DNA of 64,000 nucleotides, from assembly GCF_000337495.1 (NCBI RefSeq), contig NZ_AOIS01000058.1, forward strand, positions 147,312 through 211,311. The letters are read 5' to 3'. Source of the stretch: Haloterrigena salina JCM 13891 (lineage in GTDB: Archaea; Halobacteriota; Halobacteria; Halobacteriales; Natrialbaceae). The translations under genes were made by a program, and so were the position numbers. Of this stretch, positions 41,221 through 61,994 are shown in pieces. The notes below the pieces were generated by a model, which saw only the letters and a program-made list of their open reading frames with translations, did not search any database and had not been told where the DNA came from. How positions within the stretch are numbered: the stretch's first letter is position 1; the number at the start of each line of letters is the position of its first letter.

Positions 41221-43143
41221 ATGACTGATATCGGTGGATTCCAGGACCACGTCGCCCGCATCGATCTCTCGGAGGGGTCGGTCGACTACGAGCCGATCGA
41301 CGACGAAGACGCGGAGAAGTATATCGGGGCGCGCGGCCTCGGGGTAAAGTACGTCTTCGAACAGGGACCGGACGTCGACCCGCTCGGGCCGGACAACCTT
41401 CTGGCCTTCATGAACGGGCCGCTGTCGGGAACCCAGACGACGATGAGCGGTCGGATCGCCGTCTGTACGAAGTCGCCGCTGACGGGCACCGTTACGGACA
41501 GCCACCACGGCGGCTGGTCGGGCGCCCGGCTGAAGTGGGCGGGCTTCGATGGGCTGCTGGTCGAAGGGGAGGCCGACGAGCCGGTCTACGCCTACGTCGA
41601 GGACGGCGAGGTCGAACTTCGGGACGCCTCCCACCTCTGGGGCGAGGGCTTTCACGACACGCGCGACGCGATCGAGGAGGAGGTCGACGGCGCCTTCGGC
41701 AAGAACCTCTCGATCATGGGGATCGGCCCCGGCGGCGAGAACGGCGTCAAGTACGCCTGCATCATGAACGAGGACGATCGGGCCTCCGGTCGCGGCGGCA
41801 CCGGCTGCGTCATGGGGTCGAAGAACCTCAAGGCGATCGTCGTCAAGTCCGGGACGAAGATGCCCAAACCGGCGGATAAGGAGACGTTCATGGAGGGCCA
41901 CCAACAGGCCATGCAGGCCATCCAGGAGTCAGAAGTCACCGCACCGAACGAGGGCGGGCTCTCGATGTACGGCACCAACGTCCTCATGAACATCGGTGAG
42001 GAGATGGACGGTCTCCCGACGAAGAACGGCCGGTACACCTCGACCGAAAGCATGCGCGATGCCGAGGGCGCCGATATCGACGCCGAGCGCGTCTCCGGCG
42101 AGAACGTCCGCGAGAACATCCTCGTCGACGAACCCACCTGTCACTCCTGTCCGGTCGCCTGTAAGAAGGAAGTCGAGGTGACGGCGATGCACAAGGGCGA
42201 GGAGATGAACGTTCGCACCGAGTCCTACGAGTACGAGTCGGCCTACGCGCTCGGCCCGAACTCCGGGCACACCGAGCGCGACGACATCGCCCTCATGATC
42301 GACCGGTGTAACGACATGGGCGTCGACACCATCGATACCGGCAACATGCTCGCGATGGCCATGGAGATGACCGAGGAGGGCAAACTCGAGGACGAAGGCG
42401 GACTCGACTGGGGCGACTCCGAGACGATGATCGAGCTGATCGAGCGGATCGCCCACCGCGAGGACGACCTCGCGGACCTGCTCGCCGAGGGCCCGAAGCG
42501 CGTCGCCGACCGCAAGGACGCCGAGGAGAACTCGCTCGCGGTCAAGGGCCAGACCATCGCCGCCTACGACCCCCGCTGCATGAAGGGGATGGGCATCGGC
42601 TACGCCACCTCGAACCGCGGGGCCTGCCACCTGCGCGGCTACACGCCGGCCGCCGAAATCCTCGGGATCCCCGAGAAGGTCGACCCCTACGAGTACGAGG
42701 GCAAGGGCGAACTCACCGCCCAGTTCCAGGATCTGCACGCGATCTCGGACAGCTTCGACATCTGCAAATTCAACGCCTTCGCCGAGGGCATCGAGGAGTA
42801 CGTCACCCAGTACAACGGGATGACCGGTCTCGACGTCACCGAAGACGAACTCCTCGAGGCGGGCGAGCGCATCTACAACCTCGAACGGTACTACAACAAC
42901 CTCGTCGGCTTCGACGGCAGCGACGACTCGCTACCCGAGCGCTTCCTCGAGGACGGCATCCCCGGCCAGGGCGCCAGCGAGGGCGAGTACTGCGAACTCG
43001 AGGAGATGAAGGCGGAGTACTACGACCACCGCGGCTGGGTCGACGGCGTCGTCCCCGACGAGAAACTCGACGAGTTGGGCATCGATATCGGCCCCGGCAC
43101 GGGCGTCTCCGCGGGCGATTCGGCGGCCCCGGCCGACGACTGA
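41221..43143 (+). CDS. aor: Aldehyde:ferredoxin oxidoreductase (tungstopterin)
   Basis: This 640-residue enzyme oxidises aldehydes to carboxylic acids with ferredoxin as acceptor, using a tungsten-bis-pterin and one [4Fe-4S]. It has the AOR N-terminal domain (GARGLGVKYVF), the cluster motif CHSCPVACK (near residues 306-313) and the fourth Cys in DICKFNAF (about 515), plus pterin-binding blocks such as SNRGACHLRGYTP. Length is normal. It could act on aldehydes made by the quinoprotein or formaldehyde route, but many AORs serve other pathways. The gene appears to be monocistronic. Confidence 0.93.
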   Translation: MTDIGGFQDHVARIDLSEGSVDYEPIDDEDAEKYIGARGLGVKYVFEQGPDVDPLGPDNLLAFMNGPLSGTQTTMSGRIAVCTKSPLTGTVTDSHHGGWSGARLKWAGFDGLLVEGEADEPVYAYVEDGEVELRDASHLWGEGFHDTRDAIEEEVDGAFGKNLSIMGIGPGGENGVKYACIMNEDDRASGRGGTGCVMGSKNLKAIVVKSGTKMPKPADKETFMEGHQQAMQAIQESEVTAPNEGGLSMYGTNVLMNIGEEMDGLPTKNGRYTSTESMRDAEGADIDAERVSGENVRENILVDEPTCHSCPVACKKEVEVTAMHKGEEMNVRTESYEYESAYALGPNSGHTERDDIALMIDRCNDMGVDTIDTGNMLAMAMEMTEEGKLEDEGGLDWGDSETMIELIERIAHREDDLADLLAEGPKRVADRKDAEENSLAVKGQTIAAYDPRCMKGMGIGYATSNRGACHLRGYTPAAEILGIPEKVDPYEYEGKGELTAQFQDLHAISDSFDICKFNAFAEGIEEYVTQYNGMTGLDVTEDELLEAGERIYNLERYYNNLVGFDGSDDSLPERFLEDGIPGQGASEGEYCELEEMKAEYYDHRGWVDGVVPDEKLDELGIDIGPGTGVSAGDSAAPADD

Positions 43144-43982: not shown

Positions 43983-44118
43983 CCCGCCCGCCGTCGGCTC
44001 CCGTCGGCCGGACCGCCGGCCGGCACCGCCTCGAGACGGTCACCGGAAACGGACTACTTAACGGAACGTACAAATCCTTTATTCCGAGGTTCGTGGTTAG
44101 CACCCGTTGTGGGAGATA

Positions 44119-45198
44119 ATGACAAACACATGCTGCGATCGCCGCCGGTTCCTCGCCGTCGCGGGGGGCGTGACCGCGACCGTTGCGGGCTGTCTCGGCG
44201 GTCCGGGTGGGAGTGACTCGGGCGATACCGCCGACGGCGAGCCCGCCGTCACCGACGTCTCGCTGCTGCTCAACTGGCGGATCAGCGGGCTGCACGCGCC
44301 CTACGTCGCGGCCCGTGAGAACGGATTTTACGCGGACGAGGGGTTCGAGAGCGTTGATATCGAGAGCGGGGACGGCTCGGACTTCGCCGCGAACCAGGCC
44401 GGACTGGGGAACGTCGAGTTCGCGATCACGAGCGCCGATCAACTGCTGAACGTCAACAGCCGCGGGCTCTCGCCGCGCTGCGTCGCGGTCGTCATGCAGC
44501 GCAACCCGAACGTCGTCTTCGCGACCCGCGACGGGTTCGGCGAACTGACCGATCCCGGGCAACTCGAGGGGGCCACGGTCGGTAGCGGTCCCGGCATGGT
44601 CCGCCAGATGACCGAGGCGTACCTCGAACACCACGGCGTCCTCGGGTCCGTCGACTACGTCGACGCCGGGTTCGACACCGTCCAGCAGCTGCTCGCGGGC
44701 GACCTCGACGCCGCCGGCGGCGTGTTCGGCGACGTCGTCGACGCCGAACAGCAGGGCGCGACCGTCGACGTGCTCTCGATCGACGAGACGATCCGCTCGT
44801 ACGGCCACCTCGTCGCGACCGACGCGGAGTTCGCCGAATCGAACGAGGCGACCGTCCGCTCGTTCCTCCGCGCGACCGCGCGAGGCGCCGTCTGGGCGAG
44901 TACCAACCCCGCTGACGCGATCGCCTTCCTCGTCGACGCCCAGCCCGAACTCGAGGAGGTCCGCGAGAATCAGGCCGACAAGTGGGACCGGATGCACGCC
45001 GAGTACATGTTCTCGGAGACCGTCCGCGAGCGCGGCTGGGGATACAGCGAATCGAGACCGTGGACGGAGACCTACGAGACGCTCGCGGCGGCCGACGTCT
45101 TCGAGGACGACGTCGATCCCGAAACGGTGTGGACGAACGACTACCTCGACGATGAATCCGAACACATCGCCGACTACGCGGCGCGGGTCGAGTCCTAA
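44119..45198 (+). CDS. NMT1/THI5-type ABC substrate-binding lipoprotein (Tat)
   Basis: This 359-residue secreted binding protein starts at ATG 44119 (MTNTCCDRRRFLAVAGG); the DRRRFLAVAGG twin-arginine motif and AGC lipobox (Cys24) indicate Tat export and lipid anchoring. The mature part has the NMT1/THI5-like pattern (LNWRISGLHAPYVAAR, ATVGSGPGM, and a C-terminal VRERGWGYSE). Members bind pyrimidines, sulfonates, taurine or thiamine precursors; the ligand here is unknown. A permease gene follows after about 70 bases, but no ATPase is adjacent. It is a paralogue of the SBP half of the HTH fusion at 49121-50395. Confidence 0.92.
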   Translation: MTNTCCDRRRFLAVAGGVTATVAGCLGGPGGSDSGDTADGEPAVTDVSLLLNWRISGLHAPYVAARENGFYADEGFESVDIESGDGSDFAANQAGLGNVEFAITSADQLLNVNSRGLSPRCVAVVMQRNPNVVFATRDGFGELTDPGQLEGATVGSGPGMVRQMTEAYLEHHGVLGSVDYVDAGFDTVQQLLAGDLDAAGGVFGDVVDAEQQGATVDVLSIDETIRSYGHLVATDAEFAESNEATVRSFLRATARGAVWASTNPADAIAFLVDAQPELEEVRENQADKWDRMHAEYMFSETVRERGWGYSESRPWTETYETLAAADVFEDDVDPETVWTNDYLDDESEHIADYAARVES

Positions 45199-45267: not shown

Positions 45268-46224
45268 ATGGAGCGCCAGCGAACCGTCGTCGAGACGGGA
45301 CCGAGATCGATGACCGATCGACGTACGGAGTCAGTGGCCGACGGCGGGACGGAATCGATGTCCGAGGGGGACGGATCGAGAGCGGGAGCGATGCCCGACG
45401 AACGGACCGATACGAACCGCCGCCCGATCCGGACGCCGTCGATCGGGCGATCGCGATCCGTTCGCGATCGAGCCGCGCCCGTCGGGAAACGCGTCGGACC
45501 GCCGGCGTTCGTCTTCGTCGTTCTGCTCGCCGCGTGGCAGGCGGCCGTCGTCGTCACCGGGCTCCCGACGCTGATCCTCCCGTCGCCGACCGACGTCGCG
45601 ACCGCGCTGCTCGAGACGTATCCGACCTTGCTCGGCGATGCGGTCGTGACGGGCGTCACCGCCGCAGCGGGGCTGCTCGCCGGCGGTCTCGTCGGCTTCG
45701 CGCTCGCGTTCGGGATGACTTACTCGCGGACGGCGACGCGGACGCTGGTGCCCTACGTCGTCGCCTTACGGATCGCGCCGCTGATCGCCGTCGCGCCGCT
45801 GCTGTTCCTCTGGTTCGGCCGCGGAATCCCGGCGCGGGCGCTGCTCGTCGCGACGCTGACCGTCTTTCCGATGACCATCGCCGCGCTCGACGGGCTGCGG
45901 GAGACGCCGGCGCCGTACCTCGACCTCGCCGACTCCGTGGGCGCGTCGCGGCTCGAGACCTTCCTGTTCGTCCGCGTGCCGGTCGCCGCGCCGAGCGTCG
46001 TCGCCGGGTTCAAGATCGCGGCCACGCTGTCGGTCATCGGCGCGGTCGTCGCCGAGTTCGTCACGCTCCGGGCCGGACTGGGCTACCGGGTGTTCGACAC
46101 GGCGACGTACCTCGAGACGGCCGAGACCTACGCGGCGCTGGTCGTCCTCTCGGCACTGGGCGTCGGGTTCTATCTGGTCCCGGTGGCGCTCGAGCGATTG
46201 CTGTGGTCGGCTTCCGAACGATAG
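45268..46224 (+). CDS. ABC transporter permease (NMT1-type importer)
   Basis: This 318-residue membrane protein has the BPD_transp_1 fold with a permease signature EAA-like region (SVGASRLETFLFVRVPVAAPSVVAG, about 227-251). It has an unusually long charged N-terminus (residues 1-75, Arg/Ser/Thr-rich), so a shorter start at 45310 or 45358 is possible; I kept the longest. It pairs with the upstream SBP; its ATPase may be the one at 48318-49124. Confidence 0.85.
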   Translation: MERQRTVVETGPRSMTDRRTESVADGGTESMSEGDGSRAGAMPDERTDTNRRPIRTPSIGRSRSVRDRAAPVGKRVGPPAFVFVVLLAAWQAAVVVTGLPTLILPSPTDVATALLETYPTLLGDAVVTGVTAAAGLLAGGLVGFALAFGMTYSRTATRTLVPYVVALRIAPLIAVAPLLFLWFGRGIPARALLVATLTVFPMTIAALDGLRETPAPYLDLADSVGASRLETFLFVRVPVAAPSVVAGFKIAATLSVIGAVVAEFVTLRAGLGYRVFDTATYLETAETYAALVVLSALGVGFYLVPVALERLLWSASER

Positions 46225-47544: not shown

Positions 47545-48321
47545 TCAACCCGTCGCCTCGAGCCCCAGCCACCGCCTCACGCCGCGCTGGACGAGCACCA
47601 CCGTCCCGTACAGCGACAGTCCCAGCGCCAGCAACACCGCGAGCGCCGCGAGCATGACGTCCGGGCGGACGTTCTCCGAGCCCATCAGAATCAGAAAGCC
47701 CAACCCGCGGTCCGCGATCACCCACTCCGCGACGACTGCGCCCACCACCGCGAGAGTCACCGACTGCTTGAGCCCCGCGAAGACGTCCGGCAGCGCGTAC
47801 GGGAGGTCGACGTAGACGATCCGCTCGAGCGGGCCGGCGTCGACCGACCGCAGCAGATCGCGGTGGGCCGACGGCGCGCGCTCGAGGCCGGCGGCGGTGC
47901 TCAGCACGAGCGGGAAGAAGGTGATGAGCGCGACGAAAACGACGGCGGTCTCCGTTCCCGTCCCGAGGTAGATCAACAGCAGCGGCGCGACGGCGAGCTT
48001 CGGCAGGACTCTGACGGCCACCAGATAGGGGTAGACCGCCGTCCGGAACCAGGGGAGGTAGGCGACCAGTACCGCCAGTAGGAAGCCGGCCGCGATCCCG
48101 ACGCTGCCGCCGTAGAGGACTTTCTCGAGGGTGTACCACGCGTTGTGGACGTACAGCGTCGGGTTCCCGACCAGTCGGGCGACGACGGCGCCGGGCGCGG
48201 GCAGGACGAACGCCGGCACGTCGCCGACGACCGCCACCGCCCACCAGCACAGCGCGGCGACGGCCAGCGCGGCGGTCGGGAAGAAGACGTCGCCCGCGAG
48301 CGTCCGTATTCGCGTCGTCAT
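47545..48321 (-). CDS. ABC transporter permease (NMT1-type importer)
   Basis: This 258-residue permease starts at ATG 48321, which overlaps the upstream ATPase stop by four bases (ATGA). It has six hydrophobic segments and the cytoplasmic-loop motif DAGPLERIVYVDLPYALPDVFAG. It belongs with the ATPase and HTH-SBP fusion genes in a coupled three-gene operon. Substrate is unknown. Confidence 0.9.
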   Translation of the reverse strand: MTTRIRTLAGDVFFPTAALAVAALCWWAVAVVGDVPAFVLPAPGAVVARLVGNPTLYVHNAWYTLEKVLYGGSVGIAAGFLLAVLVAYLPWFRTAVYPYLVAVRVLPKLAVAPLLLIYLGTGTETAVVFVALITFFPLVLSTAAGLERAPSAHRDLLRSVDAGPLERIVYVDLPYALPDVFAGLKQSVTLAVVGAVVAEWVIADRGLGFLILMGSENVRPDVMLAALAVLLALGLSLYGTVVLVQRGVRRWLGLEATG

Positions 48322-49124
48322 CGGTCTCGCCCCCGATCTCGCTCTCGTCTCTGATCTCGCCCCAGATCCCGCTCCCGGTCTCGGTCGTGGGCCTCGTGGA
48401 GCGTCCGTCGGACGGTCGCGACCTGTTCCTGGAACGCCCGCGAGCCGAAGACATTCGCGTCCCGCGGTTCGGGCAGATCGATCTCGTAGTCGGCCTCGAT
48501 CCGGCCCGGTTGTCCGCAGACGACGAGACAGCGATCGGCGAGGAACACTGCCTCGGGGACGCTGTGGGTGACGAAGACGACCGTCTTGCGCTCGCGGCGC
48601 CAGACGTCCCGGATCTCGACGCCGAGTTCGTCGCGCGTGATCTCGTCGAGTTCGCCGAACGGCTCGTCCATCAGGAGTACGTCCGCGCCGAGGTGGAGCG
48701 CGCGGGCGATCGCGACCCGCTGGCGCATCCCGCCCGAAAGCCGCGCCGGCCGCGCGTCCGCGAACCCCTCGAGGCCCATCGTCTCCAGCAGCGCCCGCGC
48801 GTCGGTCTCGTCGGGCTCTTCGCCGGCCAGCCGCCGGAGAAAGGTGACGTTCTCGAGGGCGGTCTTCCACTGGAAGAGGGTGTGGCGCTGGAAGACGAAG
48901 CCGAGGTCGGCACCGGCCTGTGCGGCCGCGGGCGGCTTCCCGTCGATGCGCACGCGGCCGGTCGTCGGCGTCTGGAGGCCGCCGATCGTCCGCAGCAGCG
49001 TCGTCTTCCCGCAGCCCGACGGGCCGACGACCGTGACGAACTCGCCGTCGTCGATCCGGAGGTCGACGTCTTCGATCGCGGTGACGTCGTCGAACCGAAC
49101 CGTGACGTCCGCGAGGTCGATCAC
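48318..49124 (-). CDS. ABC transporter ATP-binding protein
   Basis: This 268-residue ATPase has Walker A GPSGCGKTT (near 34-42), the ABC signature LSGGMRQR, Walker B VLLMDEPFGELDEI, and an H-loop FVTHSVPEA. It resembles the taurine/nitrate/sulfonate (SsuB/TauB) class. A Arg/Asp-rich C-terminal tail is unusual. It overlaps its neighbours by four bases on both sides, so the operon is tightly coupled. It may also serve the SBP-permease pair at 44119-46224, which lacks an ATPase. Confidence 0.93.
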   Translation of the reverse strand: MIDLADVTVRFDDVTAIEDVDLRIDDGEFVTVVGPSGCGKTTLLRTIGGLQTPTTGRVRIDGKPPAAAQAGADLGFVFQRHTLFQWKTALENVTFLRRLAGEEPDETDARALLETMGLEGFADARPARLSGGMRQRVAIARALHLGADVLLMDEPFGELDEITRDELGVEIRDVWRRERKTVVFVTHSVPEAVFLADRCLVVCGQPGRIEADYEIDLPEPRDANVFGSRAFQEQVATVRRTLHEAHDRDRERDLGRDQRRERDRGRDR

Positions 49125-50395
49125 GCTTCATCACCGAGCAGCGAACCCTGCGCTAAGGCCGTTCGGAGGCGGTCCCACATCTCGGCTCGGTGCCAGCCCC
49201 AGCCGCGTTCGCGGACGGCGTCGCTGGTGCCGACGTCGGCCGCCGCGCGAGCGAACGTTCGCCGAATTCGCTCCGGCGGGTCGTCGCTCTCCGCGGCGAT
49301 TCGCTCGGCCGCCGGGCCGGGATCGCGACGCGCCGCGGCCCAGCCGCCGGTCGTCCCCGCGAGGACGTTCGCGATCTCCCGCGTCCGCTCGTCGAGCGTC
49401 CGCTCGCGGACGACGATCGTCGGCCCGTAGACCGGGAAGTGAGCGGTGATCGGGAGCACGTCGACGGTCGCTCCCTCTCGCTCGAGCTCTCGCGGGTCGG
49501 CGATCGATCCGGTCACGACGTCGGCCTCGCCCCGACGGAGGGCGTCGCGCTCCTCGCCGTTCGTATCGACGACTGCGACGTCCTCGTCGACCGCGATCTG
49601 CGAGAGAAAGAGTCGTCCGAGCAGGCGCGTCTCGGCGTTCGGCGGCATGCCGACCCGTCGGCCCTCGAGCTGGTCGACACTCCGCAGCGGCTCGCCGAAC
49701 ACCTCGCGGACGGTGTAGAGGACGGTCATCGCCCGCTGGTAGCAGAGCGCGACCGGAACGATCGGCTCGCCGGCAGCGCGGGCGCGGACGACCGTCGCGG
49801 CGCCGACGACGGCGAGGTCGGCCTCGCCCGAACGCACTCGCTCGAGCGCTCGCCGGGAGCCGTCTCGGTGATCGATCCGGACGTCGACCCCGAACGCGTC
49901 GTACCACTCGGCCGCGATCGCCGCGTAGATCGGGACGTGGAGGGCGTTCGGCCGCCAGTTCAGCGCGAATTCGATCGGCGAGTCGGACGGCGCCGCCGCC
50001 TCGGACCGCGGTTCCGTCGCCGTGCCGCCGCGGAAGCTCTCGGCGAGTTCGAGCAGCGCCCGGGCGTGACTCTCGTAGGTCGCTTCGATCGTCCGCTCGA
50101 CGTCAGCGACCGGTCGCCACGCGGTCCGCGGTCGACCGCCGGACGCGGCCGTGCTGACGGTCGTCCGTTCGACCAGGTCGCGGGACTCGAGTCGCGCTAT
50201 CGCCTCGCTGATCGACGTTCGGTTCGTCCCGGTGCCGATCTGCAGGCGAACGTTCGTGGTCGGATCGGTCTCGCGCTCGGCCCGCAAGAGTAGGTACGCG
50301 AGGATTCGGGCCGGCGTTCGCCCGACCCCGGCCGCGATGCTGTCGACGATCGGGTCGTCCTCGTCGTCGAGTACCCAGACGGAACGCGTTCGCAT
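49121..50395 (-). CDS. Winged-helix DNA-binding / NMT1 substrate-binding-domain fusion
   Basis: This 424-residue protein begins with a winged-helix (about 1-95; VGRTPARILAYLLLRAER, NRTSISEAIARLESRDLV) and continues with a periplasmic-binding fold from about residue 137 (IEFALNWRPNALHVPIYAAI). There is no signal peptide, so it is cytosolic. The binding domain is paralogous to the secreted SBP at 44119 and keeps its C-terminal VRERGWGW pattern. It overlaps the ATPase gene by four bases. I infer a one-component regulator that senses the transported ligand inside the cell. Transport participation without export is unlikely. Confidence 0.9.
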   Translation of the reverse strand: MRTRSVWVLDDEDDPIVDSIAAGVGRTPARILAYLLLRAERETDPTTNVRLQIGTGTNRTSISEAIARLESRDLVERTTVSTAASGGRPRTAWRPVADVERTIEATYESHARALLELAESFRGGTATEPRSEAAAPSDSPIEFALNWRPNALHVPIYAAIAAEWYDAFGVDVRIDHRDGSRRALERVRSGEADLAVVGAATVVRARAAGEPIVPVALCYQRAMTVLYTVREVFGEPLRSVDQLEGRRVGMPPNAETRLLGRLFLSQIAVDEDVAVVDTNGEERDALRRGEADVVTGSIADPRELEREGATVDVLPITAHFPVYGPTIVVRERTLDERTREIANVLAGTTGGWAAARRDPGPAAERIAAESDDPPERIRRTFARAAADVGTSDAVRERGWGWHRAEMWDRLRTALAQGSLLGDEA

Positions 50396-50667: not shown

Positions 50668-51570
50668 ATGAGTCAGACACCAACCGCGTCGAACACGAGA
50701 CTCGCAGAACGAGGCGATCTGGCGACGGCGCTCGGCGTCGATACGGCGGGTGAGGAGGACGTAACGTGGACGACCCTCGCGGGGCGGGTCGAACCGCGGT
50801 CCGATTCGACGTTCGCCTCGAGGGGGGCGACGATCCGAGACGATCTCGGCGACCGACTCGATCCCGACCTGATCGAGCGGGAACGCGATCGAATCGCGGC
50901 CGAAATCGGTCGCTTGCCGGACGTCCGCGAGGCGGGCGTTCCGGACGAGCCCGAGGGACTGTATACGGAGGTCGCCGAACCCGGTTGGCGCCCCTATGAC
51001 CACCTTCTCGAGGCGGGATTCTTCGAGCGCCTCGACGAGACCCTGCCGCGGTTCACGGCCGAGCACGTCGAGACCACGGCGCGCGAACTGGTCCTGACGG
51101 ATCGGCTCTCGTCGGCGCTCGACGACGCGGGCTTCGACGAGGGGGAGAAGACGGCGCTGCTTTCGGCCGTCGCCAACGACAGCGAACGGCTCTCGCGGTG
51201 GGTGCCGTCGAATCAGATCCCGGACGACGTCGAGTTCGACACGTCGACGATTCCCCCGTTACATCAGCGGGCGATGGGCGGGGCGCTGCTGTGGATCCGC
51301 GGTCTCGACAGACACCTCTGGCAGAACGAGGTGCTCGTCACCGAGGAGATCCTCGACGATGCGGCGTGGTACGTCAAGGCGATGCTGGGCGGCCTGTTCG
51401 TCTCGGCGACCGCCGCTCACGATCTCGCCACAGCGGAACGGTTCACGGACGAACAGCTGACCGCCGCGCTCACCGCGGGGACGGCCGTACAGATCGTCAG
51501 TCAGGAAGAGCTGCTGCACGCCGTCTTCTACATCACGGACGAGATGCGCGCGCCGAGCGAACTGAGGTGA
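50668..51570 (+). CDS. Hypothetical protein of the quinoprotein operon
   Basis: This 300-residue soluble protein starts at ATG 50668 (MSQTPTASNTRLAERG) and looks mostly helical with an acidic surface. It has no signal peptide, transmembrane segment or metal motif that I recognise. The stop is six bases before the quinoprotein ATG, so the two are translationally linked. A chaperone, activator or partner of the quinoprotein is a reasonable guess only. No family is recognised. Confidence 0.85.
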   Translation: MSQTPTASNTRLAERGDLATALGVDTAGEEDVTWTTLAGRVEPRSDSTFASRGATIRDDLGDRLDPDLIERERDRIAAEIGRLPDVREAGVPDEPEGLYTEVAEPGWRPYDHLLEAGFFERLDETLPRFTAEHVETTARELVLTDRLSSALDDAGFDEGEKTALLSAVANDSERLSRWVPSNQIPDDVEFDTSTIPPLHQRAMGGALLWIRGLDRHLWQNEVLVTEEILDDAAWYVKAMLGGLFVSATAAHDLATAERFTDEQLTAALTAGTAVQIVSQEELLHAVFYITDEMRAPSELR

Positions 51571-51576
51571 TAACCC

Positions 51577-53286
51577 ATGGCACTTCGAAACGACAGGGCC
51601 GTTCAGGCCGCACGCGACATCGAACTGGTAGAGATCGACGACGGCTATACGCTGGTCGGTGGTCCCGAGGAATCGATCACGCAGCAACACGACAGCGACC
51701 GGATCCCGGAGGTCGACGTCGATCAGGAGATGCTGAGCAACTCGGGCGAGGATCCGGAATCGTGGCTGATGTACGGCGGCAACTACGAACAGCACCGAGT
51801 CACGACCGCCGATCTCATCACGCCCGACACCGTCTCCGACCTCGAGCTCGAGTACGAGCTGTCGGTCGGCACCGGCTCGAGCATGGAGGGGACGCCGATC
51901 GTGGTACCCGGCGATCCGCCGGTCATGTACCAAACCAACGGGCCGAATCACATGAAGGCGATCGACCCCCGCGAGGGGGAGGTCCTCTGGAGCTACACCT
52001 ACGCGGTCCCGATCGGCGTCGAACTCTGCTGTGACGACAACAACCGCGGGGCCGCCGTCTGGGGCGACAAGGTCTACATGACGACGCTCGACTCGGGCGT
52101 CGTCGCGCTGAACCGGTACACCGGCGAAGAGGAGTGGTACACGAGCACCGCCGATCACGAGGTCGGCTACTCCGCGACGTGGGCGCCCGTGATCCACGAC
52201 GGAACGATCTACACCGGAAGCGCCGGCGGCGAGTACGGCGTCCTCGGATTCGAGGCCGCGATCGACGCGGAAAGCGGCGAGATCCAGTGGCAGACCGACA
52301 CGCTCCCCGAGGACGAGTGGGTCGGCGCGAGCCGGGAACACGGCTGCGGGACGACCTGGATGACCCCGACGATCGACGAGGAACGGGGGGTCCTCTACAC
52401 GGCGGTCGCGAACCCCGGACCGGACTTCGACGGAACGGTGCGGCCGGGGCCGAACTTCCCGACCTGCGGCACGATCGCGCTGGACTTAGAGAGCGGCGAG
52501 TTCCAGTGGGGCTTCCAGAGCAGTCCCCACGACGTCTGGGACTACGACGCGGTCGCGCCGCGAGTGCTGTTGCGCGACGTGGACGTCGACGACGGCCCGT
52601 CGGAGATGGTCGTCGGCTCCGACAAGACCGGCTGGGTCTACATGATGGACGCCGAGTCCGGACAGCTCCACGAGCGAAGCCAGGAGATCTGCCAGCACAT
52701 CAATATGTGGGAGATGATCCCCCACATCAGCGCGGACGAGCGGATCCCGTTCGTCCCCGGCGCGCCGGGCGGCAACGACTGGCAGCCGCCGTCGTACAAC
52801 CCCGAGACGGGGTACGTCTACGTCGTCCACCAGAACTTCCCGCAGGACCTCTACTGGCGCTACGAGGAGTACAGCGAGGGCAACCCCTACTGGGGCGGCG
52901 GCCTCGACGACCCGGCCTCGGAGATGCCCGACGAGTGGAACGAGTCGATCACGGCCTTCGCCGCGGTCGATCCCGCGACGGGCGAGCGCGTCTGGCGCGA
53001 CTGGATCGAGAGCGAAGACGAGTTCTACATGTGGGGCGGCTCGATGTCGACGGCGACGGGCCTGGTCTTTAACGGGACCCAGAACGGAAATCTCGTCGCC
53101 TACGACGGCGAGAGCGGCGACCGCCTCTGGGAGCACGAGTTCGACGTCCCGATCAGCGCCTCGCCGATGAGCTGGTACGACCCCGGCGAGGAGAAGCAGT
53201 ACGTGGCCGTCCAGGTCGGCGGCAGCGGCTGGCTCCGACAGGGAACCCGCGGCGACACGCTCGCCGTGTTCTCGATGGGGGCCTGA
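51577..53286 (+). CDS. PQQ quinoprotein alcohol dehydrogenase with lanthanide-type signature
   Basis: This 569-residue beta-propeller resembles methanol/ethanol dehydrogenases. From about residue 65 (WLMYGGNYEQHRV) the family pattern runs to the end. Aligned by eye to methanol dehydrogenase: vicinal Cys151-Cys152 (ELCCDDNNRG), Glu219 (GGEYGV), PQQ-stacking Trp261, Asn279 and catalytic Asp322; Asp324 two residues later gives D-Y-D, the extra ligand seen in lanthanide-dependent XoxF/PedH and missing in calcium MxaF. Spacing Asn-to-Asp (43) matches XoxF. There is no signal peptide visible on a roughly 60-residue N-terminal extension. The substrate could be methanol, ethanol or another alcohol. 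A PQQ synthesis gene is not in the window. Confidence 0.9.
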   Translation: MALRNDRAVQAARDIELVEIDDGYTLVGGPEESITQQHDSDRIPEVDVDQEMLSNSGEDPESWLMYGGNYEQHRVTTADLITPDTVSDLELEYELSVGTGSSMEGTPIVVPGDPPVMYQTNGPNHMKAIDPREGEVLWSYTYAVPIGVELCCDDNNRGAAVWGDKVYMTTLDSGVVALNRYTGEEEWYTSTADHEVGYSATWAPVIHDGTIYTGSAGGEYGVLGFEAAIDAESGEIQWQTDTLPEDEWVGASREHGCGTTWMTPTIDEERGVLYTAVANPGPDFDGTVRPGPNFPTCGTIALDLESGEFQWGFQSSPHDVWDYDAVAPRVLLRDVDVDDGPSEMVVGSDKTGWVYMMDAESGQLHERSQEICQHINMWEMIPHISADERIPFVPGAPGGNDWQPPSYNPETGYVYVVHQNFPQDLYWRYEEYSEGNPYWGGGLDDPASEMPDEWNESITAFAAVDPATGERVWRDWIESEDEFYMWGGSMSTATGLVFNGTQNGNLVAYDGESGDRLWEHEFDVPISASPMSWYDPGEEKQYVAVQVGGSGWLRQGTRGDTLAVFSMGA

Positions 53287-53327: not shown

Positions 53328-54839
53328 ATGACCAACGAACAACGCTCACGCGAGGACGTTTCCCGTCGCGGCGTGCTGAAGGGAACGGCGGCGCTGGCCG
53401 GGACGGCCGCGCTCACGGGCCGTGCCGGCGCCTACCGCGACGTCGTCGACTACCCGCTGCCGGCCGCGCAGGGCGACGTCGAGGGCCGGACGCTCTCGCT
53501 GCTCGGCATCGTCGGCGGCTGGGTCGGCGTCGCGCCCGCGGAGATCGACGGCGCTTCGAACCCGCCGCTGCGACTGATGGAAGGCGTAGAGAACGAGATC
53601 ATCTGGACGAACGGCGACGGCTCGCGCCACAACTTCACCATCGGTGACGACCAGGACGAAGTGATCGAGGCGACCGAGTTCGTGGAGGAACAGGGCGAGT
53701 CCACCTCGCTCACGATCACTCCCGAGGAGGGAATGGCCCAGTACTACTGCATCCCGCATCCGGTTCAGATGCGCGGTCCGATCGAACTGGTCGATCCGGG
53801 GGAGGTCCACGAACTCAGCGTCCGCGTCGAGGACGAGAACGGCGACCCGCTGGGCGCGGAGGTCTTCGTCGGCGATCACCACTCCTTCTCCAACGTCGTC
53901 GCCCGAGGGGGTCCGGACCAGGAAGGCCAGAGCGGAGAGTCGCAGGAATTGGAACCGGGCGACGACGAAGGCGGCAACCAGACGGCCAGCAACGAAACAG
54001 TCGGCAACGAAACGGCAGGTAATGAGACGGTCGGCAACGAAACGGCAGGTAACGAGACGGCCGGCAACGAAACGGCCAGTGACGGCGTTCAGGAGGAGGA
54101 AACGCCGGCCGACGAGGACGCGCCGGCGATCGCCCGTTTCGACATGCTCGAGGACGGCGAGTACGACCTCGAGGTCTGGACCTACGGCCACGAGCGGGTC
54201 ACCGACACGGTGACGATCGACGGCGAGGACCAGGAGATCACCGTCACGCTACCCGCGACGGATCCGGGCGAACCGACCGAGACCTTCTCGATGCGTCTCG
54301 AGGAGGGTCAGTGGGTCGGACAGGAGCCCGAAGCGATCGCCGACCAGACCAACCCGACGCTCGAACTCGAGGCGGACGAGACCTACGCGATCGAGTGGGA
54401 GAACGGGATCGGTCGCCACCAGCCCGAGGGGGAGAACCGGGTCTTCGAACCCCTCCCCGGCCACAACTTCGTGATCGCCAGCGGCGGCGACACCAACGAG
54501 TGGAACACGTACGTCCGGTCGAACTTCCTCAGCGAGGAGGGCGAGACCCAGACCGTCGAGTTCGTCGCCAACGAGGAGATGGGCGTCTACTTGGACCAGT
54601 CGCAACTCGATGCGGTCGGCGAGATCGCCATCGGCGGCGCGGCCAACGGCGAGGCGGTCCCCGCCGGCGACGAGACGGCCGGTAACGAGACGGACAGCAA
54701 CGAGACGGCCGAGGGAATCGGCAACGAAACAGCTGGCAACGAGACGGTCGACAACGAGACGATCGAAGCCGCCGGAAACGAGACGGAGGGAAACGAGACG
54801 CTCGAGACCCCCGGCAACGAGACGGGCGACGACGACTGA
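53328..54839 (+). CDS. Tat-exported blue-copper protein with glycosylation-sequon linkers
   Basis: This 503-residue secreted protein begins with a twin-arginine signal (VSRRGVLKG, then hydrophobic). The first cupredoxin domain (about 45-160) has Cu ligands His101, Cys141, His144 and Met148 in CIPHPVQM. A Ser/Glu/Asn-rich linker at about 210-250 holds seven Asn-x-Thr sequons. A second cupredoxin-like domain follows (about 320-440) in which the Cys/His/Met set is missing, so it is probably structural. The C-terminal tail (about 446-500) has eight more sequons. It follows the quinoprotein by 41 bases and is the natural electron acceptor candidate. Confidence 0.88.
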   Translation: MTNEQRSREDVSRRGVLKGTAALAGTAALTGRAGAYRDVVDYPLPAAQGDVEGRTLSLLGIVGGWVGVAPAEIDGASNPPLRLMEGVENEIIWTNGDGSRHNFTIGDDQDEVIEATEFVEEQGESTSLTITPEEGMAQYYCIPHPVQMRGPIELVDPGEVHELSVRVEDENGDPLGAEVFVGDHHSFSNVVARGGPDQEGQSGESQELEPGDDEGGNQTASNETVGNETAGNETVGNETAGNETAGNETASDGVQEEETPADEDAPAIARFDMLEDGEYDLEVWTYGHERVTDTVTIDGEDQEITVTLPATDPGEPTETFSMRLEEGQWVGQEPEAIADQTNPTLELEADETYAIEWENGIGRHQPEGENRVFEPLPGHNFVIASGGDTNEWNTYVRSNFLSEEGETQTVEFVANEEMGVYLDQSQLDAVGEIAIGGAANGEAVPAGDETAGNETDSNETAEGIGNETAGNETVDNETIEAAGNETEGNETLETPGNETGDDD

Positions 54840-54974: not shown

Positions 54975-56096
54975 TCACGCGTAGTTCGCGATCCAGTAGC
55001 CGACGTAGAGCGCGAGCAGCGCCGCGCCGCCCGCCCGCGTCACGCGACCGCGAGCGAGCAACCCGGCGACGACGAGCAGACACGCGGCGAGAAACGGCCA
55101 GTGGACCGTCATCACCGCGCCCGCGGTATCGACGGGGCGCAGCAACGCGATGAGGCCGACGTTGGCCGTCACGTAGAACACCGTGCTCCCGACGACGTTC
55201 CCCACGGCGAGGTGCGCTCGGCCCTGTCGAACCGGTTCGACGGTGAGCGCCAACTCCTCGATCGAGGCGATAAAGGAGAGCACCGTCGCGCCGAACGCGA
55301 GCCCCGAGATGCCGAGCGCCACGAAGATCCCTTCGGCGCTCACCACGGTGAGTCCGGAGCCGACCGTCATGCCGACGATCGCGAGGACGGCGACGGCGAG
55401 GCTGAACCGTCCGCTTTTCCCTTCGAGGTCGGGGACGAACTCGTCGAGGTCCAGATCGAGATCGAGGTCGCGATCCGCGCGTCGGTCGTCGCGCTCCGAA
55501 CCGAGAGCGGGCGCTCGATCGCCACCGTTGGGTTCCGCGCCCGTACCTGCGACCGCTGTCGAGTCCGCCGCTGCGCCCGCCTCCGCGTCCGCCTCGAGGC
55601 CGACGACCTCCTCGACCTCTCCCGAGAGCAGGTACGTCGTCTCCGAGCGGCGCTCGCGCCAGAAGATGCCGGCGAGCAGCGGGACGAACAGGACCGTCAG
55701 GATCGCGCCATCTGTCCAGTCGAGCGTCCCGTCGAGCGAGAGCGCGAACGCCGGGAGGGGAACGAGGACGAGCAGGAACAGATAGAGTCGCGGGACGTCC
55801 ATTCGGAAGGGGACGGCGAGCCCCGCGACGCCGACGGCGACCGCGAGGACGAACAGCGACTCACCGAACACCGTTCCGAGCGCGAGATCGGGGAGGTCGA
55901 CGAACGCCGCCGTGACGCCGAGGATCGCGTTCTCGAGGTCGACGCCGGCGAGCACGACGGCGAGGAAAAAGCCCGAAATACCGAGCGAGACGGCGCTGCG
56001 GGCGACGGCCGCGATGAAGACCTCGACGCACCAGATCACCAGCAGGACGCCTCCCAGGAAGAGGGCGGCGAGGCCGACGAGCGCCGCGATGTCCAT
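54975..56096 (-). CDS. CaCA-type cation antiporter-like membrane protein
   Basis: This 373-residue protein has about ten membrane segments in two halves, with the cation/calcium exchanger alpha-repeat traces GNVVGSTVF (about 288-296) and LGTVFGESLF in the first half. The canonical GxSxPE motifs are replaced (DLENAILG and SIEELALTV), so ion specificity is uncertain. A central acidic linker (about 170-225, repeated Asp-Leu) separates the halves. The start is ATG 56096 by hydrophobic onset. It is tandem with a paralogue. Confidence 0.85.
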   Translation of the reverse strand: MDIAALVGLAALFLGGVLLVIWCVEVFIAAVARSAVSLGISGFFLAVVLAGVDLENAILGVTAAFVDLPDLALGTVFGESLFVLAVAVGVAGLAVPFRMDVPRLYLFLLVLVPLPAFALSLDGTLDWTDGAILTVLFVPLLAGIFWRERRSETTYLLSGEVEEVVGLEADAEAGAAADSTAVAGTGAEPNGGDRAPALGSERDDRRADRDLDLDLDLDEFVPDLEGKSGRFSLAVAVLAIVGMTVGSGLTVVSAEGIFVALGISGLAFGATVLSFIASIEELALTVEPVRQGRAHLAVGNVVGSTVFYVTANVGLIALLRPVDTAGAVMTVHWPFLAACLLVVAGLLARGRVTRAGGAALLALYVGYWIANYA

Positions 56097-56172
56097 ACGC
56101 GGTCCCGAACCACGTCGGCGCACTTAATTCCGGGCGCCGATTCCGTGCCCCGTCTCGTCAGCGCTCGCGGGC

Positions 56173-57270
56173 CTAGCCGGGGATCGGAACGCCGCCGAAC
56201 GCGAAGATCGCGACGAGCCAGTAAGCGACGTACAGCCCGGCGAGGGCGTACCCGTGGCCCCGCCGGAGCCGGCCGCTGGCGATCACGGCTGCAGCGACGG
56301 CGGTCAGGACGATCACCGCGGGCAGGTGGAAGACGAGCACGGCCGGCGGAATCGTCACCTCGGCGACGAACGCGATGACCCCGACGTTGGCCGTGACGGA
56401 GAAGATCACGCTCCCGACGACGTGGCCGACGCCGATCTCCGGAATCCCTCGGCGGACCGGTTCGATCGTCAGCAGGAGGTTCTCGAACGTCAATACCAGT
56501 GTGAGGACGGTCGCCCCGAAGACCGTCTCCTCGATCCCCCACGACTCGACGAGCACCTCCGAGCTCGCCTGCAGCATGATCGAGCCGACGACGAGTCCGC
56601 CGAGCGCGAGCACCGACAGCCCGAGCCAGAAGGCGGCCTCGTAGGCGGCGTCCGTGACGAACCGGTCCTCGGGGATCTCCTCGAGGACCGTTCGACTGTC
56701 GAGCTCCGCGAGGCTGACTTCCTCGAGCGGGACGCCGCCGTCGGCCTCGATGCGCTCGGCGATCTCCGAGTCCCGGAACACCGGGACGTCGCGCTGGGAC
56801 TCCCGGACGACGACGTAGCCCAGCAGCGCGGCGAACGCCGCGACGAGGAGGAGCCCGTGGACGGCGGTGAGCGTTCCCGCGAGGACGAACGGGACCAGAA
56901 GAAGCGGCGAGAGCGCGAACAACACGAGGTAATCGCGGGGGACGTCGACCGGAAACGGCCGCGCGATCGCGGCGACCGCCAGCGTGATTCCGGTGATCGC
57001 CAGCGCGGTCCCGAGCGCGGTGCCGAGCGCCGCGTCTTCGAGGCCGCCGGCGCCGAAGACCAGCGCGACGGCGGTGTCGTCGAACTCGAGGCCGGTGAAG
57101 ACGATCGCCAGCGCGAAGATGGAGACGCCGAAACCCATCGCCGCCCGCGTGAGGTAGCTGATGAGTTTCTCGACGCTGTAGGTGAGGACGACCGCCCCGA
57201 CGACGAGCACGACGACCGCGAACCACGTCCCCTGTCCCTCGATGACGCCCTCGAGGAGGTCTTCGACCAT
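56173..57270 (-). CDS. CaCA-type cation antiporter-like membrane protein (paralogue)
   Basis: This 365-residue paralogue of the preceding gene product has the same two-half topology and second-half motif GHVVGSVIFSVTANVGVI, with GLEFDDTAVAL in the first half. A central linker with mixed charge (about 150-200) follows the same plan. Start ATG 57270; ATG 57282 is an alternative. It is upstream of the other gene on the same strand with a 76-base gap, so they are likely cotranscribed. Confidence 0.85.
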   Translation of the reverse strand: MVEDLLEGVIEGQGTWFAVVVLVVGAVVLTYSVEKLISYLTRAAMGFGVSIFALAIVFTGLEFDDTAVALVFGAGGLEDAALGTALGTALAITGITLAVAAIARPFPVDVPRDYLVLFALSPLLLVPFVLAGTLTAVHGLLLVAAFAALLGYVVVRESQRDVPVFRDSEIAERIEADGGVPLEEVSLAELDSRTVLEEIPEDRFVTDAAYEAAFWLGLSVLALGGLVVGSIMLQASSEVLVESWGIEETVFGATVLTLVLTFENLLLTIEPVRRGIPEIGVGHVVGSVIFSVTANVGVIAFVAEVTIPPAVLVFHLPAVIVLTAVAAAVIASGRLRRGHGYALAGLYVAYWLVAIFAFGGVPIPG

Positions 57271-57474
57271 AACCCACTGCATGCGGGCCGTCAACATATA
57301 GCTAACAACCCGGGGAGAGAATTCCGTTGGAAATCTATACACGCGTCGCGGATCGACCGACGGGACGACCCGCCGGCCGTCGAGTACGCGCCCGTCGTCG
57401 GGACCGGTTCCGCGCGTTTTCGAGGCGAAAATCGGTCGTTCGGGACGGAGCGCGACGACCGCCGCACGCCGTCG

Positions 57475-59983: not shown

Positions 59984-61105
59984 TCATAGCGGAAACGGAT
60001 CGACCGGCGGTTCCGTCTCCGCCGCTTCGTCGCTCTCGATCACGCACGCCTCGAGTTCCTCGCGAATCCGCTCTTCGTCCATCTCTCTGCCGATGAACAC
60101 CAGTTGCGTGCGCCGGTCGTCGTCGGGTCGCCACTCGCCGATCGGGCCGGCCCTGACGGACGGCCCGGCCTGACTGACGCCGATCACCTCCTCCCGGTTC
60201 GCGACGTAACAGACGCCCTTGGCGCGGACGATCGCGCCGTCCCAGTCCTCGAGCCAGTCCGCGAGTCGCTCCGGGTGAAACGGTCGGTCGGACCGGAAGA
60301 CGAACGACGAGACGCCGTGCATCTCGGCGGCGGTGCGCTCTTCGTTGTGGGCGCCCGGCCCGTCTCCGTGATCGTGATCCTCCCCGCGAAGATGGCGTTT
60401 CCACCCCTGCGACCGCTTCGCCGTTTCGAAGTCGAATCGACCGGTGTCGAGGACGACGTCCGGATCGATCTCACAGTAGCTCGTTCGGAGCCGTTTCGCA
60501 CGCGGCTGGAGGGTCTCGACGACCGCTTCAATCTCCTCGAGGACGTCCTCGGGGACCATATCGGACTTGTTGAGCAGCAAGACGTCACAGAACTCGATCC
60601 CCTCGACGAGGACCTCGCTCAACGGCCGGTCGGTGTCGGGTTGTGCCCCCTCCGGAAGCCGTTCTCCGGCGTCGAACTCCTTCCAGAACCCGTACGTATC
60701 GAGAACGGTCACCATCGTGTCCAGCCGAAACAGGGTTGTCGGATCGACGTCGCTCTCGTCGGTCCCTTCGGTGAACACCTGTGCCACGGGAATCGGCTCG
60801 CTGATCCCCGAGGACTCGACCAGCAGGTAGTCGAACGTTCGGCGCTCCGCCAGCCGCCGTGCTTCCTCGAGGAGATCTCCCCGTAACCGACAGCAGATAC
60901 AGCCGTTCGAGAGATCCACGATCCCGTCCTCGTCGTTTTCCCGCGCGATGCGGTCCGCGTCGACGTTGATCTCTCCCATGTCGTTGACGATCACCGCTAC
61001 CTGCCGTCCGCCCGGATTCGACAGCACGTGATTGATCAGCGTCGTCTTTCCCGCCCCGAGGTAGCCGCTGACGACGGTGACGGGAACTGGGCCGTTCTCT
61101 GTCAT
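59984..61105 (-). CDS. CobW/COG0523 GTP-binding metallochaperone (second copy)
   Basis: This 373-residue COG0523 protein has Walker A SGYLGAGKTT (13-22), CxCC at 69-72 (NGCICCRLRGD), NKSD, and a C-terminal CobW_C domain. Before that domain is a His/Asp-rich segment (GEDHDHGDGPGAH, near residue 240), an extra metal-binding site missing from the copy at 26964. The gene is surrounded by small Cys-containing proteins and an ArsR-like regulator, suggesting a zinc or other metal stress response. It is divergent from nothing immediately; the regulator is 179 bases upstream. Confidence 0.92.
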   Translation of the reverse strand: MTENGPVPVTVVSGYLGAGKTTLINHVLSNPGGRQVAVIVNDMGEINVDADRIARENDEDGIVDLSNGCICCRLRGDLLEEARRLAERRTFDYLLVESSGISEPIPVAQVFTEGTDESDVDPTTLFRLDTMVTVLDTYGFWKEFDAGERLPEGAQPDTDRPLSEVLVEGIEFCDVLLLNKSDMVPEDVLEEIEAVVETLQPRAKRLRTSYCEIDPDVVLDTGRFDFETAKRSQGWKRHLRGEDHDHGDGPGAHNEERTAAEMHGVSSFVFRSDRPFHPERLADWLEDWDGAIVRAKGVCYVANREEVIGVSQAGPSVRAGPIGEWRPDDDRRTQLVFIGREMDEERIREELEACVIESDEAAETEPPVDPFPL

Positions 61106-61284: not shown

Positions 61285-61578
61285 TCACCGATCGGACGGA
61301 TCCGACGCGTCGATCTCGTCGGCCTGCAGGACGAACGTCCGCTCCGGCGGCGGTGCGATCCGCAACTCGAGTGAACTCGTGAGTCGGTAGTACTTCCGGT
61401 TGCCGCGCATGTACCACTCGACTAAGCCGGCGTCTTCGAGCGTCGAGAGGTGGTGGACGGCGCTCGTTCCGTCCATGCCGACCGCCTCGGCGAGTTCGGA
61501 GACGTACTTCGGCCCCCGGGAGAGTTCGCGCAGAATCTCGAGTCGGGTCCCGTTCCCCAGTACCTCGATCAGGGACAT
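61285..61578 (-). CDS. ArsR-like winged-helix regulator
   Basis: This 97-residue regulator has the winged-helix pattern (LEVLGNGTRLEILRELSRGPKYV start, AVGMDGTSAVHHLSTLEDAGLVEW recognition helix and wing). No obvious Cys/His metal site (no CxC or DxCxxH) is visible in its core. It lies upstream of and on the same strand as the CobW gene (179-base gap), so it may regulate or share its transcription. The gene downstream amphi-Trp is divergent. Confidence 0.88.
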   Translation of the reverse strand: MSLIEVLGNGTRLEILRELSRGPKYVSELAEAVGMDGTSAVHHLSTLEDAGLVEWYMRGNRKYYRLTSSLELRIAPPPERTFVLQADEIDASDPSDR

Positions 61579-61691: not shown

Positions 61692-61994
61692 ATGTCCGAT
61701 CGAGTTACCCTTCCGGAAGACCGCGACCGCGACCGGCGGACGATCACCGACGGGTTCTTCGAACGAGAAGTCTATCTCTCGCGGGAGGAGACGGCCGCCT
61801 TTCTCCGGGAACTCGCCGATCAACTCGAGGCCGATACGCGGGTGACGGTCGCGGGATCGACGTGGGAGATCCCCTTCGAGTACCGCGACCCGATCGAGGT
61901 CGAGATCGAGTTCGCGAGCAAGCGCGAGCGCGAACTCGAGATCGAACTCGAGTTCACCGAACGGGGCGAGGGTTCGGACCTCTCCGTCCGCTGA
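61692..61994 (+). CDS. Amphi-Trp domain protein
   Basis: This 100-residue protein is an amphi-Trp domain (FFEREVYLSREETAAFLREL, WEIPFEYRD, and a Glu/Arg-rich C-terminus EVEIEFASKRERELEIELEF). The ATG at 61692 is chosen over an upstream in-frame ATG at 61587, whose leading codons are non-coding. The domain is common in haloarchaea; function is unknown. It is convergent with the 187-residue protein gene. Confidence 0.88.
   Translation: MSDRVTLPEDRDRDRRTITDGFFEREVYLSREETAAFLRELADQLEADTRVTVAGSTWEIPFEYRDPIEVEIEFASKRERELEIELEFTERGEGSDLSVR

Follow-up and report, generated by a model that had tools for sequence, protein, structure and literature searches.

PQQ-dependent alcohol dehydrogenases (PQQ-ADHs), among them the lanthanide enzymes XoxF and PedH and the calcium enzymes MxaF and ExaA, are the closest described systems to the locus reported here. 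In methanol dehydrogenase (MDH), PQQ is sandwiched by a vicinal cysteine pair; PedH has a signal of its own for export, and PqqC is the last enzyme of PQQ synthesis. Archaeal quinoproteins, some with a D-Y-D motif, occur in marine heterotrophic Thaumarchaeota and are thought to feed electrons to the quinone pool or to blue-copper proteins; Cys-Cys is absent from them, signal peptides are found in 15 of 21, and a PQQ synthase is reported (PMC7300363). For haloarchaeal quinoproteins of the present type, no paper was found in the open-licence literature, and they constitute a previously undescribed family. The preliminary description of this locus regarded an archaeal member as new or unusual; "new for archaea" would be too strong in view of the thaumarchaeal D-Y-D proteins.

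The window, i.e., the whole stretch of 64,000 nucleotides from Haloterrigena salina JCM 13891 that was analyzed, encodes a quinoprotein whose reading frame starts with ATG (Table 1). Its product matches the family model TIGR03075 (PQQ_enz_alc_DH) over residues 47-550 (E 4e-108), although the score of 362 bits does not reach the curated cut-off of 480. It also matches the Pfam PQQ model PF01011 with 170 bits, above the cut-off. The protein has a whole-length match to the PQQ-dependent alcohol dehydrogenase superfamily as well as its PQQ- and metal-contact residues. NCBIfam, Pfam, and PDB sequence searches assign it to the methanol/ethanol family of quinoproteins, and PQQ binding and alcohol oxidation are predicted for it. 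The top PDB matches in sequence searches are PedH and quinohaemoprotein/XoxF enzymes, of which the PedH type scores best. The second-best NCBIfam match is TIGR04528 (acido_non_PQQ), a model named for "empty" quinoproteins, whose cut-off of 650 bits is not reached (273 bits). The AlphaFold model of the quinoprotein, computed from ten close sequences, has a pLDDT of 48, and D324 was placed by alignment instead.

Table 1. Features of the window discussed in the text, with the evidence for each.
Feature	Position	Strand	Basis
Aldehyde:ferredoxin oxidoreductase family protein	41221..43143	+	PF01314/PF02730; near quinoprotein in several loci
NMT1/THI5-like substrate-binding protein of ABC importer	44107..45198	+	PF09084; synteny
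ABC permease 1	45268..46224	+	PF00528
ABC permease 2	47545..48330	-	PF00528
ABC ATPase	48318..49124	-	Synteny; ATPase by sequence motif
HTH fused to NMT1-like ligand-binding domain, probable sensor-regulator	49121..50395	-	Domain searches; co-occurrence 53/54
Partner protein up305, 300 aa, all-helical; vestigial Tat signal ERGDLATALGVD	50668..51570	+	Pfam/NCBIfam/PDB searches, AlphaFold, synteny
Quinoprotein (PQQ-ADH-like, 8-bladed propeller family), 569 aa, without signal peptide	51577..53286	+	ORF, NCBIfam, Pfam, PDB sequence searches
Vicinal C151-C152	52027..52032	+	Alignment
E219, metal ligand (MxaF E177)	52231..52233	+	Alignment
W261, PQQ-stacking Trp	52357..52359	+	Alignment
N279, metal ligand (MxaF N261)	52411..52413	+	Alignment
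D322-Y323-D324, catalytic Asp and lanthanide-type extra Asp	52540..52548	+	Alignments
Blue-copper (plastocyanin-like) protein with Tat signal, likely electron acceptor	53328..54839	+	Pfam; downstream synteny
Na/Ca antiporter family protein NCX1	54975..56123	-	PF01699, TIGR00367
Na/Ca antiporter family protein NCX2	56173..57342	-	Family searches
ArsR/SmtB-type winged-helix regulator, without Cys	61291..61578	-	NF033788 above cut-off
Amphi-Trp domain protein, divergent from ArsR-type gene	61704..61991	+	Domain search

The residues named in the preliminary description (C151-C152, E219, W261, N279, D322, and D324) are all correctly numbered, and their aligned counterparts are active-site residues of XoxF and PedH. 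When the protein is aligned to solved structures with HMMER and MAFFT, D324 lies inside the metal site, and D322-Y-D324 aligns with the D-Y-D of XoxF (6dam, 4mae) and the D-F-D of XoxF1 (6oc5) and PedH (6zcv), whereas the +2 position of calcium enzymes is occupied by Ala (MxaF; 1lrw, 4tqo), Ser (ExaA; 1flg), or Thr (quinohaemoprotein ADH, QH-ADH; 1kb0, 1yiq). Among the aligned references of the vicinal-Cys MDH/ADH type, Asp is found at +2 in four of four lanthanide enzymes and none of five calcium enzymes, and the complete E-N-D-x-D set with vicinal Cys is found, among solved references, in lanthanide enzymes only. D324 thus occupies the position, two after the catalytic Asp, of the extra Asp of lanthanide-dependent PQQ-ADHs. 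Furthermore, Gly218, the residue preceding the metal Glu, matches XoxF (6dam) and PedH, whereas Asp or Ala occurs in those calcium enzymes whose corresponding half was available. Counted on the alignments, the Trp-Asn spacing of 18 equals that of XoxF 6dam and the Asn-Asp spacing of 43 compares with 42-43 in XoxF and PedH, as first proposed; the distance from E219 to N279, however, is 60 as against 82 in PedH and 88 in XoxF 6dam, and the haloarchaeal enzyme thus lacks 22-28 residues between the metal Glu and the Trp, a departure that the first reading overlooked. Most of the PQQ and metal contact positions compared are identical to those of MDH/XoxF, and the non-identical ones, K350 (for Arg), D401 (for Asn), and A216 (for Ser), are all found in characterized quinoproteins. 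The set E219/N279/D322/D324 is kept in nearly all of the approximately 36 haloarchaeal relatives sampled, down to approximately 38% identity (the exceptions being the group-6 sequences L058-L060, in which the metal Glu is lost), and the D-Y-D site is therefore not due to chance. The site appears suited to a trivalent lanthanide and may accept calcium too.

All 36 haloarchaeal quinoproteins in a maximum-likelihood tree of 54 sequences form one clade (support 100/100), which falls outside the branch comprising XoxF, MxaF, ExaA, PedH, and the quinohaemoproteins. The quinoprotein of the window groups with neither XoxF nor PedH/ExaA, and orthology to XoxF or PedH is rejected by the tree; it looks as if the protein works like a lanthanide-type PQQ-ADH, yet is neither of these two enzymes. 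The haloarchaeal sequences are divided into six groups, with the enzyme of the window in group 1. The PQQ and metal contacts are nearly invariant in groups 1-3; group 4 retains the metal set without the vicinal Cys, and both the vicinal Cys and the metal Glu are missing from group 6.

The start codon of the quinoprotein lies 6 nt after the end of the up305 gene, which is directly upstream of the quinoprotein gene in all 46 haloarchaeal loci among those listed. In 125 Natrialbaceae genomes, the two genes co-occur and are co-located in 54 of 54 cases, a count that includes one genome (G065) in which both are decayed remnants; up305 is an obligate partner of the quinoprotein. Relatives of up305 were found neither in Pfam, NCBIfam, and the PDB (including a search of the PDB with a 26-sequence profile) nor in the bacterial quinoprotein loci examined, and its AlphaFold model (pLDDT 72), which is all-helical, has no fold match in the PDB (best E 0.2). 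In one genome (G072), the up305 gene of one chromosomal copy (L018) is frameshifted into two overlapping frames, and the remaining copies appear intact. Judging gene names by eye, the Tat-partner/quinoprotein pair of the group-5 loci L096, L098, and L099 is located in or beside an RNA polymerase - nusA - rpsL - EF-2 block, an odd site for dehydrogenase genes.

No signal peptide was found in the quinoprotein of the window. In most group-1 orthologues, the ATG is preceded, immediately or within a few codons, by an in-frame stop codon, and a signal peptide is therefore impossible there. By contrast, the N-terminus of 12 distinct, deep-branching up305 proteins is a canonical Tat signal, in which RRxFLK precedes a nearly uncharged hydrophobic stretch. 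The N-terminal stretch of the remaining up305 proteins still aligns, with the FLK motif lost and charges mostly gained (the version of the window is ERGDLATALGVD). Two changes of the Tat label are seen on the tree; the signal of the partner has decayed twice, including in the lineage of the window. The catalytic subunit lacks a signal, as in Tat hitchhiker systems; an adjacent partner with a Tat signal is seen in the 12 deep-branching cases, whereas the up305 of the window has no such signal and the neighboring cupredoxin does. Given that the quinoprotein lacks a signal peptide and the deep-branching partner has a Tat signal, the simplest reading is hitchhiker export, in which the partner would have carried the folded enzyme out of the cell until two lineages lost the signal. 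The pattern suggests that export was thereafter either lost or moved to the adjacent Tat blue-copper protein.

This blue-copper gene is directly downstream of the quinoprotein gene in 19 of 19 group-1 loci among those listed, and its product has a type-1 Cu motif (H...C-x-x-H-x-x-x-M) in the first domain; it is the likely electron acceptor and could in group 1 serve as both acceptor and new Tat carrier. At group 2-3 loci, no cupredoxin match was found and a 2Fe-2S ferredoxin is often beside the quinoprotein, which fits cytoplasmic life. Reduced PQQ donates electrons poorly to cytosolic 2Fe-2S ferredoxins, and this poor fit to PQQ electrons counts against the main explanation given below. A CDC48-type AAA ATPase and a coiled-coil protein often accompany the ferredoxin beside the quinoprotein at these loci (L046-L048, L064, L065, L090-L093, L095). 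In one group-4 locus, the blue-copper neighbor (L049:8921-10885, minus strand) carries a fused GSDH domain (PF07995), whose PQQ-type sugar dehydrogenase fold is a second one, unrelated to that of the quinoprotein. The aldehyde:ferredoxin oxidoreductase family protein of the window, a weakly linked gene, possibly performs the next step, from aldehyde to acid.

Co-inheritance was analyzed in the same 125 Natrialbaceae genomes (54 quinoprotein-positive and 71 negative), in which positive and negative genomes are interspersed within several genera; all counts depend on the E-value threshold, are uncorrected for phylogeny, and include linked genes that travel together. The HTH-SBP fusion encoded beside the ABC importer occurs in 53 of 54 positive and 1 of 71 negative genomes (Fisher p 4e-33, phylogeny-uncorrected), the ArsR-type regulator in 52 of 54 and 0 of 71, and NCX1 in 38 of 54 and 0 of 71 (Fisher p 1e-19, likewise uncorrected), NCX1 being unlinked to the quinoprotein gene in 14 of the 38. 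The importer would bring PQQ or substrate, and the antiporters would serve the metal. The neighboring Zn-alcohol dehydrogenase (FdhA-like), used as a control, is present in approximately 19 quinoprotein-negative genomes; because it is so common there, it was dropped as a part of the system, and the HbpS-like and CobW genes were left out along with it. The ArsR-type protein was rejected as a Cys-based metal sensor owing to its lack of cysteine. In many loci, the amphi-Trp gene occurs together with the antiporter block. The window also encodes two CobW-family GTPases (26964-28250 and 59984-61105, both on the minus strand), approximately 45% identical, the latter of which scores well against the zinc chaperone ZigA, below the cut-off.

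PqqC was found in 0 of 125 Natrialbaceae and 0 of 384 Halobacteria genomes, and the same search detects it in four of seven bacterial plasmids with related quinoproteins, which served as positive control. PqqE never exceeded its 381-bit cut-off in the 125 Natrialbaceae genomes; PqqE-like matches of approximately 84-126 bits in 92 of them are similar to those in 8 of 14 control genomes and were taken as other radical-SAM proteins. As PQQ synthesis is undetectable, PQQ, if used, must be scavenged.

On balance, we consider the following explanation probable as a whole. The quinoprotein would be a PQQ-dependent dehydrogenase of alcohols (or related carbinols) belonging to a haloarchaea-specific clade, in which PQQ would be held between W261 and the C151-C152 disulfide and the metal would be bound by E219, N279, D322, and D324. 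The enzyme would work with its obligate helical partner, whose Tat signal, in the ancestral state, would take the enzyme, folded and without a signal of its own, to the cell surface; there the enzyme would reduce the Tat-exported blue-copper protein. In the lineage of the window, in which the signal of the partner has decayed, the complex may be carried by the adjacent Tat cupredoxin or may stay in the cytoplasm. PQQ would be scavenged, with the NMT1-type ABC importer and the HTH-SBP sensor supplying PQQ or substrate, and the co-inherited Na/Ca antiporters and ArsR-type regulator would manage the metal. Against this explanation stand the sub-cut-off TIGR03075 score, the absence of vicinal Cys from group 4, and the absence of PQQ biosynthesis, which leaves room for a PQQ-free role. 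A bolder version, a rare-earth quinoprotein system with dedicated ABC import of PQQ, "Na/Ca" antiporters that handle Ln3+, and a once-exported enzyme back in the cytoplasm, is speculative, and we would not expect it to hold.

The identity of the metal is where the earlier label of a lanthanide-type D-Y-D site needs qualification: the alignment bears it out, with D324 in the metal site and Gly218 as in XoxF/PedH, but lanthanide dependence is not diagnosed by the motif. E. coli Gcd, a Mg/Ca enzyme without the MDH-type Glu/Asn ligands, also has D-x-D (D466-M-D468). The motif is also noted for characterized m-GDH, with facultative lanthanide use predicted there (PMC11996626). D-x-D alone is thus no proof of lanthanide use, and calcium therefore remains a serious rival. 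An ordinary Ca2+-dependent PQQ alcohol dehydrogenase, in which the extra Asp is inherited and unused for lanthanides, would also agree with the annotation of co-inherited genes as Na/Ca antiporters and with the abundance of calcium in brines; the distribution of the +2 Asp among the aligned references and its retention throughout the haloarchaeal clade speak against it, and we regard it as rather unlikely. That haloarchaea obtained the protein from bacteria as an orthologue of XoxF or PedH, as its best PDB matches and shared metal ligands might suggest, is hardly credible, since the position of the clade already contradicts it, the 22-28-residue segment is missing, and neither cytochrome c nor PQQ genes lie nearby.

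A further alternative is an "empty" quinoprotein, in which PQQ catalysis has been lost and the propeller serves as a scaffold or holds another cofactor. The lack of PqqC across the Halobacteria, the acido_non_PQQ match, and the residues lost in groups 4 and 6 point in this direction, whereas a scaffold would not need the contacts that are nearly invariant in groups 1-3, and many bacteria rely on PQQ made by others (PMC12124388); we regard this alternative as improbable. As to location, the enzyme may be wholly cytoplasmic in the window, the loss of the Tat signal having moved the system inside and the importer bringing both substrate and PQQ, a reading to which we give somewhat less than an even chance. 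In its favor, the quinoprotein and up305 of the window both lack a signal, genes for 2Fe-2S ferredoxin, AAA, and coiled-coil proteins flank the pair in groups 2-3 with no Tat protein directly beside it, a binding-protein importer is co-inherited, and a signal-less Streptomyces relative adjoins pqqB, C, D, and E; against it, group 1 always has the Tat cupredoxin, a potential carrier of the complex, directly downstream.

If the preferred explanation, a haloarchaea-specific PQQ alcohol dehydrogenase with ancestral Tat carriage, is true, lanthanide-type alcohol oxidation would extend to halophilic archaea, including cultivable species, e.g., of Natrinema and Natrialba. We know of no description of archaeal PQQ uptake, and the locus would provide a case of archaeal PQQ scavenging with a candidate importer, in addition to a natural series of a Tat-carried enzyme losing the signal of its carrier. 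Because the Na/Ca antiporter and the ArsR-type regulator are strictly co-inherited, the question of calcium or lanthanide is directly testable by genetics.

Compared with XoxF (6dam, 6oc5, 4mae), the haloarchaeal quinoprotein has in common the CC-D-x-x-NRG motif, the Glu/Asn/Asp/Asp metal set, the Gly before the metal Glu, and the PQQ-stacking Trp, whereas it differs in its separate clade, Lys in place of Arg331, the shorter Glu-Asn segment, the lack of its own signal peptide and of pqq genes, the obligate helical partner, and a blue-copper neighbor in place of cytochrome c (XoxG). PedH/ExaF (6zcv, 6zcw; PQQ-ADH type 2b) shares D-x-D and Ala-Gly-Gly-Glu at the metal Glu, although the haloarchaeal protein belongs to a separate clade and has no signal peptide. 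In Tat hitchhiker dehydrogenases, such as gluconate dehydrogenase with its Tat-bearing subunit 3, a signal-less catalytic subunit and a Tat-bearing partner are likewise encoded side by side; up305, however, has no sequence match to the subunit 3 family, and its signal has decayed twice. A PQQ-ADH encoded on a plasmid of Streptomyces sp. NBC_01483 (L075) resembles the present enzyme in its lack of a signal peptide, its D-Y-D, and the small accessory gene upstream, but that gene encodes an MSMEG_3727 PQQ-associated protein unrelated to up305, and the dehydrogenase gene lies between it and pqqB, C, D, and E. The quinoproteins of Thaumarchaeota differ from those of haloarchaea with respect to Cys-Cys, PQQ synthase, and signal peptides, whereas both are archaeal and some of the thaumarchaeal proteins share D-Y-D.
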